This document shows positions 31,479-34,545 of a DNA stretch of 36,033 bases, piece by piece. The notes beneath the pieces were generated by a model. The model searched no databases, had not been told where the DNA came from, and saw only the letters and a program-made list of their open reading frames with translations. Position numbers and translations under genes: made by a program. Source of the DNA: Alcaligenaceae bacterium (lineage in GTDB: Bacteria > Pseudomonadota > Gammaproteobacteria > Burkholderiales > Burkholderiaceae_B); assembly GCA_029268265.1 (NCBI GenBank), contig JAJUGH010000003.1:1-36033 (forward strand), given 5' to 3'. Numbering within the stretch: position 1 is the first letter of the stretch; each line of letters opens with the position of its first letter.

Positions 31479-31643
31479 TCAGACCTCGATGAGTTCAAAG
31501 TCTTCCTTGCGCGCGCCGCATTCCGGGCATACCCAGTTGGGCGGGACGTCTTCCCACCGGGTGCCGGGGGCGATGCCTTCCTCCGGCAGTCCGGCTTCCT
31601 CATCATATATCCATCCACAAATCAAACACATCCAGGTTCGCAT
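31479..31643 (-). CDS. Rubredoxin
   Basis: Own translation (54 aa, below the ORF-track cutoff): MRTWMCLICGWIYDEEAGLPEEGIAPGTRWEDVPPNWVCPECGARKEDFELIEV, two CxxC motifs. Confidence 0.95.
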   Translation of the reverse strand: MRTWMCLICGWIYDEEAGLPEEGIAPGTRWEDVPPNWVCPECGARKEDFELIEV

Positions 31644-31735: not shown

Positions 31736-32533
31736 GTGTCTGCAGCGTTCGTGCCCACCGTAATGATCTTCGGGCCATTCGACCCCAGTGGTTCAACCAG
31801 TCTGCCCGCGGACGCCATCACCTGCGCCGGCCTCGGCTGCCATCCGCTCGCGGTTCTGACCGGCAATCTCGTACAGGATACCGCCGGTACCGAGACCATC
31901 GAGGCAATAACCCCTGAGCTGATGGATGATCAGGCACGCTGTCTTCTTGAAGACATGCCGGTGCATGCCATCAAGACCGGTCCGCTTTATACAACGGAAT
32001 CGGTGAGCGTACTCGCCCAGATTGCGGCCGACTACAGCCAAATTCCGCTGGTGGTCAACCTCCAGCGCGTAGCTGACCTCTCTCTCGAAGAGGAACTGGA
32101 CTCGGAAGATACCGAGGCGGCGCTGCTTGAACTGGTATTGCCACAGACCGATCTGGTGGTGACTGATCGGGCGCTGCTGCAGCAGTGGCAATCCCATGGC
32201 CTCCTTCCAGGCGAAACGCTTGAAGACGCCATGGAGGCATTGCTCGGATATGGTGCGAGCGCGCTGTTGATCTCCGGTGTCTCCGGCATCGGGCCAAAGC
32301 GCAGTTTCCTGCTTCGCGATGAGCTGGGACAGACGGCGAACTGGGCAGACGCTTCAGACGCAGCCGTACTGGGCTCGGACAGCCTGCTTGCCACGGCCAT
32401 TGCCTCAGAGCTGGCGCGGGGCGGCGAGATCCCACCGGCAGTCGCTCATGGCATCGATGTGGTGAACCGCATGGCGGCCCGTACCTTCCAGCCGGGAATG
32501 GGCGCCCGCATCTTCAATCGGAGTCGCATGTGA
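31736..32533 (+). CDS. ThiD-like (HMP/HMP-P kinase family) protein with degenerate catalytic motifs
   Basis: 'FGPFDPSGSTSLPADAITCAGLGCHPLAVLTGNLVQDT' aligns with the ThiD N-terminus; GTG start; translationally coupled to thiE. Confidence 0.75.
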   Translation: MSAAFVPTVMIFGPFDPSGSTSLPADAITCAGLGCHPLAVLTGNLVQDTAGTETIEAITPELMDDQARCLLEDMPVHAIKTGPLYTTESVSVLAQIAADYSQIPLVVNLQRVADLSLEEELDSEDTEAALLELVLPQTDLVVTDRALLQQWQSHGLLPGETLEDAMEALLGYGASALLISGVSGIGPKRSFLLRDELGQTANWADASDAAVLGSDSLLATAIASELARGGEIPPAVAHGIDVVNRMAARTFQPGMGARIFNRSRM

Positions 32534-33180
32534 CCGAAGATCTTCGCTTTCCTCGCGGCCTTTACGGCATTTCTCCGGAGTGGGATGACACCAACAGGCT
32601 GCTGGCCGCCATCGAGGCCGCAGCCGCCGGCGGCATGACGGCTTTTCAATGGCGCCGCAAGACCGCCACAGCGGATGAGGGGGTCAAACAGGCGCGCCTG
32701 GTGGTGGAGCGGTGTCGCGAACTGGGCGTGGTGAGCATCATCAACGACGACTGGCGGCTTGCCGCTCTGGTGAATGCCGACGGGGTGCACCTGGGCCGCG
32801 ACGATGGCGGGCTAACCGAGGCCCGCGTCGCGATGGGGCCGGATCGGATCATCGGCTGCTCCTGCTATAACGAGCCCGCGCTCGCGGAACTGGCCATGGC
32901 GGCCGAAGCCGACTACGTGGCATTCGGAGCAATGTATCCCTCCAGCATCAAGCCCGACGCGGTACGGGCACTACCCGAGCATCTGCAGGAAGGTAGTCGA
33001 ATCGTGGCTTCCGCAGGCCCCAGGCCGCGCCCGGCGGTCGTGGCCATTGGCGGCATCACGCCGGAAAATGCGGCGGCGGTCGTCGCGGCGGGTGCAGACA
33101 GCATCGCAGTGATAAGTGGGCTGTTTCAGGCCCCTGACATCGAATCGGCAGCCCGCCGTCTCGCGGCGCTATTTGGCTGA
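32530..33180 (+). CDS. thiE: Thiamine-phosphate synthase
   Basis: 'INDDWRLAALVNADGVHLGRDD', 'ADYVAFGAMYPSSIKP', 'VVAIGGITPENAAAVVAAGADSIAVIS'. Confidence 0.93.
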   Translation: MTEDLRFPRGLYGISPEWDDTNRLLAAIEAAAAGGMTAFQWRRKTATADEGVKQARLVVERCRELGVVSIINDDWRLAALVNADGVHLGRDDGGLTEARVAMGPDRIIGCSCYNEPALAELAMAAEADYVAFGAMYPSSIKPDAVRALPEHLQEGSRIVASAGPRPRPAVVAIGGITPENAAAVVAAGADSIAVISGLFQAPDIESAARRLAALFG

Positions 33181-33258: not shown

Positions 33259-34545
33259 ATGTCCCGTAATTCCGAATTATTCGACCGCGCCTGCAAAACC
33301 ATTCCCGGCGGAGTGAATTCTCCTGTACGGGCATTCCGTTCGGTGGGAGGCACGCCGCGTTTCATCGAGCGCGCCAAGGGCGCACACGTGTGGGATGCCG
33401 ACGGCAAGCGCTATATCGACTACGTGGGTTCGTGGGGACCGGCGATTCTCGGCCATGCCCATCCGGAAGTCATCAGCGCGGTGCAAAAGGCCGCAGAGAA
33501 CGGCTTGTCATTCGGCGCGCCCACCGAGGCCGAGATCGAAATCGCCGAGGCCATCGTGGCACGCATTCCTTCAATGGAGCAAGTGCGGCTGGTCAGCTCC
33601 GGCACCGAAGCCACGATGTCCGCCATTCGCCTGGCTCGCGGTTACACCGGGCGCTCACGCATCATCAAATTCGAAGGCTGCTATCACGGCCATGCCGACA
33701 GCCTGCTGGTCAAGGCCGGCTCGGGAATGCTCACTTTCGGCAATCCCACATCCGCCGGCGTACCGGCCGAATTCGTCAAGCACACGCTCGTACTGGATTT
33801 CAATGACCTTGATGCCGTTGCAGCAGCATTCAAGCAGTACCCAGACGACATCGCCTGCATCATCGTGGAGCCCATCGCGGGCAACATGAATCTGGTGAAG
33901 CCGCGCGACGGTTTCCTCGAAGGCCTGCGCGAGCTATGCAGCCGCCATGGCGCCATGCTGATTTTCGACGAAGTCATGACCGGCTTCCGCGTCGGCCCGC
34001 AAGGGGTGCAAGGCCTCACCGGCGTCCAACCCGACATCACCACGCTGGCGAAGGTGATCGGCGGGGGCATGCCGGTCGGCGCGTTTGGCGGACGGGCCGA
34101 AATCATGAACCACATCGCGCCATTGGGCGGCGTCTATCAGGCGGGCACGCTGTCGGGCAACCCGGTAGCCGTGGCCGCCGGACTCACCACCTTGCGCCTG
34201 CTCGGCCAGCCCGGTTTCTACGAGAACCTGGGAGAACGGTCCGCGCAGCTGGCCCAGGGCCTGCAGGAACGGGCCCGCGCCGCAGGCATCCCGTTCAGTG
34301 CCGATTCGGTGGGAGGCATGTTTGGTCTGTACTTCCGCGACGCGGTGCCGACCTCATTCGCAGAGGTTTCCGAGTGCGACGTGCAGCTCTTCAATCGCTT
34401 CTTCCACGGCATGCTCGAACAAGGTGTGCACTTTGCGCCGTCCGCCTTCGAGGCCGGATTCGTGTCGGGCGCCCATGATGCCGCGCTCATCGACGAGACG
34501 CTGGACATCGCGGCCCAGGTGTTCGCGTCGCTGAAGGCAGGCTGA
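33259..34545 (+). CDS. hemL: Glutamate-1-semialdehyde 2,1-aminomutase
   Basis: '[20 protein letters not shown]', '[20 protein letters not shown]', '[18 protein letters not shown]', '[16 protein letters not shown]'. Confidence 0.98.

Follow-up and report, generated by a model that had tools for sequence, protein, structure and literature searches.

What does a protein do when it carries the fold and N-terminal motifs of ThiD, the bifunctional HMP kinase/HMP-P kinase, but not the motifs with which that enzyme transfers phosphate? The question is raised by one gene in the 36,033-nucleotide stretch of DNA analysed here (the window), which comes from a MAG of the Alcaligenaceae. Its reading frame is intact, begins with GTG and ends in a TGA stop (32531–32533) that overlaps the GTG start of thiE (32530) in the sequence GTGA (Table 1). 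The initial annotation had described an intact frame coupled through GTG to an apparently normal thiE, and this description holds. The thiE product exceeds its TIGRFAM cut-off, and no second ThiE was found in this MAG. The next gene, hemL, comes after thiE in nearly all relatives as well. A search of the window for a TPP riboswitch or any other Rfam family found none.

Table 1. Coordinates of the ThiD-like gene, its neighbours and its degenerate motif positions in the window
Feature	Coordinates	Strand	Basis
ThiD-like gene (265 aa)	31736..32533	+	PF08543 over full length; AlphaFold2 fold; PDB ThiD matches
thiE, thiamine phosphate synthase	32530..33180	+	TIGR00693, 162 bits, above cut-off of 145.1
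Rubredoxin gene, divergent from ThiD-like gene	31479..31643	-	Reading frame; synteny across the order
hemL, glutamate-1-semialdehyde aminotransferase	33259..34545	+	ORF; name from sequence
GTGC anion-hole/catalytic Cys position, reads G213-S-D-S216	32372..32383	+	Alignment with intact orthologues and PDB ThiDs
TPNxxE position (NxxE of ribokinase family), residues 143–147 TDRAL	32162..32176	+	Family alignment
DxVM Asp position (E. coli D105), reads N108	32057..32059	+	Family alignment

The resemblance to ThiD is not confined to the N-terminus. The protein matches PF08543 (Phos_pyr_kin) with 105.5 bits against a cut-off of 27 (E = 3.9e-30) across profile positions 1–242 of 246, which places the initially proposed relationship far beyond chance, and the solved structures closest to it in sequence are ThiDs. 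An AlphaFold2 model built from a 29-row alignment (pLDDT 89.2, pTM 0.90) has a predicted ribokinase-type fold, and in Foldseek its best PDB matches are again ThiDs (TM ~0.8), followed by ThiD-type pyridoxal kinases. Against TIGR00097, the equivalog for HMP-P kinase with a cut-off of 204.95, the protein reaches only 72 bits, although this criterion is weak by itself because the motif-intact orthologues L040 and L076 likewise fall below it (200 and 180 bits).

The catalytic side of the protein is a different matter. In alignment, FGPFDPSG...LPAD...TGNLVQDT falls on the DPSG/QAD of ThiD, LVVNLQRV on DPVM, DLVVTDRALLQQW on TPNxxEA and LGSDSLLATAIASEL on GTGC; the three motif statements of the initial annotation are correct, with each segment where it had placed it. 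The catalytic Cys is present in 0/109 aligned Alcaligenaceae orthologues compared with 21/21 intact orthologues. T142, P143, N144, E147 and D108 are each found in 0/109, position 108 being His in 81%. In E. coli numbering, for which the E. coli ThiD row in the family alignment serves only as a ruler, the equivalents of Cys213, N139, E142 and D105 are present in 0/109, and Gly17, Ala18, H179, R202, H209 and G210 are essentially absent too. Conversely, D13, D23, G31, Q63, K77, G79 and A91 are kept at 0.98–1.00 in the same orthologues. Two residues that line the HMP pocket in the Salmonella ThiD–HMP structure are D23 (kept at 0.98 in the family) and Q44 (0.83 in the family, but just 0.45 in degenerate copies outside the Alcaligenaceae). 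No Gly-rich motif that might stand in for GTGC elsewhere in the protein is conserved in the Alcaligenaceae alignment, and recovery of the motif at another site was rejected. Phosphoryl transfer in the ribokinase fold depends on the anion hole, NxxE and the DxV Asp. Because all three are lost together, phosphoryl transfer by the ThiD-like protein is very unlikely, as far as its sequence allows a judgement.

Loss of these motifs does not reflect local decay of the gene. The degenerate state is common to all 109 aligned orthologues of the Alcaligenaceae, the family of Achromobacter, Bordetella, Castellaniella and Pusillimonas as well as of the window's genus (Yanghanlia caeni), and every one of these reading frames is open; an early-branching family member that reads GAGS (L032) was left out of the 109. 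In Achromobacter, the ThiD-like gene has a median dN/dS of 0.09 (19 genomes, 171 pairs, median dS 0.34) and 0 internal stops, whereas the adjacent thiE has a higher dN/dS of 0.148. Values in the window's genus are 0.07–0.31, with dS near saturation. By these estimates the ThiD-like gene is under strong purifying selection, and the combination of lost motifs with retained selection is that of a pseudoenzyme. The low dN/dS (~0.09) and the 109 open orthologues rule out a pseudogene, in line with the initial annotation. They also weigh against a milder version of the same idea, in which a redundant gene is in slow decay and survives chiefly as a translational leader for thiE. The coupled stop and start, the canonical ThiD in the genome and the absence of the ThiD-like gene from some relatives would all fit slow decay, but purifying selection at the amino-acid level exceeds that on thiE itself, and lineages in which no thiE follows still retain the gene; we regard this explanation as very improbable.

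Two members of the family, L055 (G019) and L075 (G061), have an intact ThiD with GSGC at this site and only that copy. A quick tree places the pair near the second-copy ThiDs, so that either replacement or retention of the ancestral copy may account for it.

The gene order, with rubredoxin divergent from thiD-thiE-hemL, is conserved through the Burkholderiales, and most other families of the order have a single ThiD with GSGC. Thus, by conserved order, the one motif-intact ThiD that other Burkholderiales possess has its positional orthologue in the ThiD-like gene. The initial annotation had suggested looking for a second, canonical thiD, and the window's MAG does carry canonical thiD genes (GTGC) elsewhere, in a thiS-thiG-thiD context. 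The MAG (G000) has two thiS-thiG-thiD loci, on contigs C14 (L002) and C203 (L001), but one thiC, so one of the two loci probably belongs to a second strain or is contamination. A candidate exception to the pairing of the two genes, G007, at first seemed to have a degenerate ThiD only; thiG is absent from it too, and its thi locus is therefore probably missing from the MAG assembly. Co-occurrence in one genome, together with membership of one fold family and the lack of thiG in the apparent exception, could also mean that the ThiD-like protein is an allosteric heterodimer subunit of canonical ThiD. However, the co-occurring canonical ThiDs are of different types across lineages, which makes a conserved dimer partner unlikely across all of them, and we give this idea the least credence of those considered here.

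A link to ThiC was also considered and rejected, as two genomes have the ThiD-like gene with thiC undetected. Both genomes (G009 and G025) are complete and have canonical ThiD in addition to the ThiD-like protein; both probably need to import pyrimidine or thiamine.

Seven more family groups (f4, f7, f13, f21, f31, f48 and f50) have lost the Cys from the same gene, and the motif remnants there include GAGA, GAGT, GASA, GITD and GAGD, among others. In f4, f21 and f50, intact and degenerate copies both occur or may do so. A single clade of all degenerate copies is rejected (p-AU 4.6e-93). The tree requires at least six changes without the motif columns and a minimum of four with them, with the caveat that long branches may draw some degenerate lineages together. 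Outside the Alcaligenaceae, a second canonical ThiD is present in the genomes of 20/20 degenerate copies compared with 6/21 intact ones (Fisher 1.1e-6), and the downstream thiE is gone in 20/20 compared with 0/21. These counts are phylogenetically non-independent and contain only 2–4 independent pairs, so the Fisher value overstates the correlation with redundancy, and a sign test (p 0.5) cannot reach significance. The neighbours of the degenerate loci that lack thiE differ, and no common downstream partner was found among them. In two f4 loci, L036 (G039) and L067 (G086), the degenerate thiD is followed by a small P-loop kinase-like gene (GCRGAGKTS or GTSSSGKTS).

The same comparisons bear on whether the ThiD-like protein is a partner of ThiE. 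Co-translation through the GTGA overlap and the near-universal adjacency of thiE in the Alcaligenaceae would suit a protein that binds ThiE, for example to deliver HMP-PP or to stabilise it. However, 20 degenerate loci of other families persist without a downstream thiE, and four Alcaligenaceae genomes keep thiE alone: in L181 (G032), L183 (G029), L184 (G021) and L185 (G030) the rubredoxin gene adjoins thiE, the ThiD-like gene is cleanly absent, and a canonical thiD lies elsewhere. Because the gene order is ancestral, adjacency can be explained without partnership. On both counts inherited gene order is the better explanation of the coupling in the window, and the dedicated ThiE partner put forward initially is disfavoured; we consider it unlikely.

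Another reading takes the ThiD-like protein to be a small-molecule kinase with a different substrate or catalytic base, neofunctionalised rather than dead. The fold family has given rise to pyridoxal kinases (PDB 2i5b and 4c5k are among the matches), and one lineage, f48, has restored a ribokinase-type motif. In the four f48 loci, L056–L059 (G084, G121, G153 and G181), GAGD or GSGD, with the catalytic Asp of ribokinase-type enzymes, replaces GSGC; these genes are rubredoxin-linked and have lost NxxE and the DxV Asp, and they may encode a kinase whose base or substrate has changed. In the Alcaligenaceae family, by contrast, none of G210-G212-C213, NxxE, D105, H179, R202 and H209 survives, Gly stands at the Cys position in 92%, and D215 is poorly kept (0.47). 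The kinase with a new mechanism that the initial annotation had entertained is thus conceivable for f48, but unlikely for the Alcaligenaceae family, in which no substitute motif is conserved. For the ThiD-like protein of the window, neofunctionalisation as a kinase is unlikely.

Homology, motif loss, synteny, redundancy, recurrence and purifying selection, each read directly from the sequences, are consistent with a model in which the ThiD-like protein is a catalytically dead ThiD paralogue, released by redundancy and still functional in a non-catalytic role. We consider this model probable; the loss of activity and the non-catalytic role are its inferred parts. Among the possibilities raised initially, the pseudokinase is the one that agrees with motifs gone in 109/109 orthologues, a canonical ThiD elsewhere and strong purifying selection. 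Under this model, the second canonical thiD (thiS-thiG-thiD) in the lineage would have made kinase activity at the ThiD-like gene dispensable, and the ATP and phosphoryl-transfer side would have degenerated, with purifying selection continuing to act on the fold and on some ancestral residues. The protein might then bind a pyrimidine ligand (HMP, HMP-P or HMP-PP) without phosphorylating it and serve pyrimidine/thiamine metabolism as a regulator or by sequestering its ligand. We favour this mechanism because what is left is the fold together with some of the pyrimidine side (D23, Q44), but as a tentative guess that is possible rather than probable. The HMP-P sensor suggested initially is likewise possible. 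A pyrimidine-binding role shared with the degenerate copies of other families is made less plausible by their low retention of Q44. In addition, any retained role is dispensable, since at least four Alcaligenaceae genomes have thiE but lack the ThiD-like gene.

It is also possible, though again short of probable, that a further, non-catalytic function already belonged to the rubredoxin-linked ThiD of Burkholderiales at a time when its kinase activity was not yet redundant, so that catalysis was lost in place and the moonlighting protein kept. If so, each lineage that gained another thiD would have unmasked a hidden function of ThiD. Conservation of such a function would be expected to leave an excess of lineage-specific over pan-ThiD residues among those kept, but the two classes did not differ (14/45 compared with 14/39, Fisher p 0.65). 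Nine residues (H36, D48, R68, L71, E72, D99, Y100, P104 and M255) are kept at 1.00 in both the Alcaligenaceae and the other degenerate groups, and this set, which was chosen post hoc, is suggestive.

Among known systems, the closest is ThiD itself (PF08543; PDB 1jxh/1jxi, 1ub0 and 8g1h), with which the ThiD-like protein shares its fold, its length, the DPSG, (Q/P)AD and KxG residues and the genomic position of the intact Burkholderiales enzyme, but not the catalytic Cys, the Gly-rich anion hole, NxxE or the DxV Asp. ThiD-type pyridoxal kinases (PDB 2i5b and 4c5j-n) have the same fold, but the phosphoryl-transfer motifs expected of an active kinase are not kept in the ThiD-like protein. Pseudoenzymes born of redundancy offer a general parallel, as they too lose motifs while fold and purifying selection are kept and an active paralogue remains in the same genome; unlike them, the ThiD pseudokinase recurs in parallel lineages. 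We found no description of a ThiD pseudokinase in the literature searched, which was that available outside subscription.

Judged by Pfam alone, such genes in Achromobacter, Bordetella and other genera would be read as HMP-P kinases, an error that would mislead metabolic models and lists of drug targets. Finally, the repeated loss of catalysis from a gene that is nonetheless kept points to a role for ThiD, so far undescribed, that is independent of catalysis.
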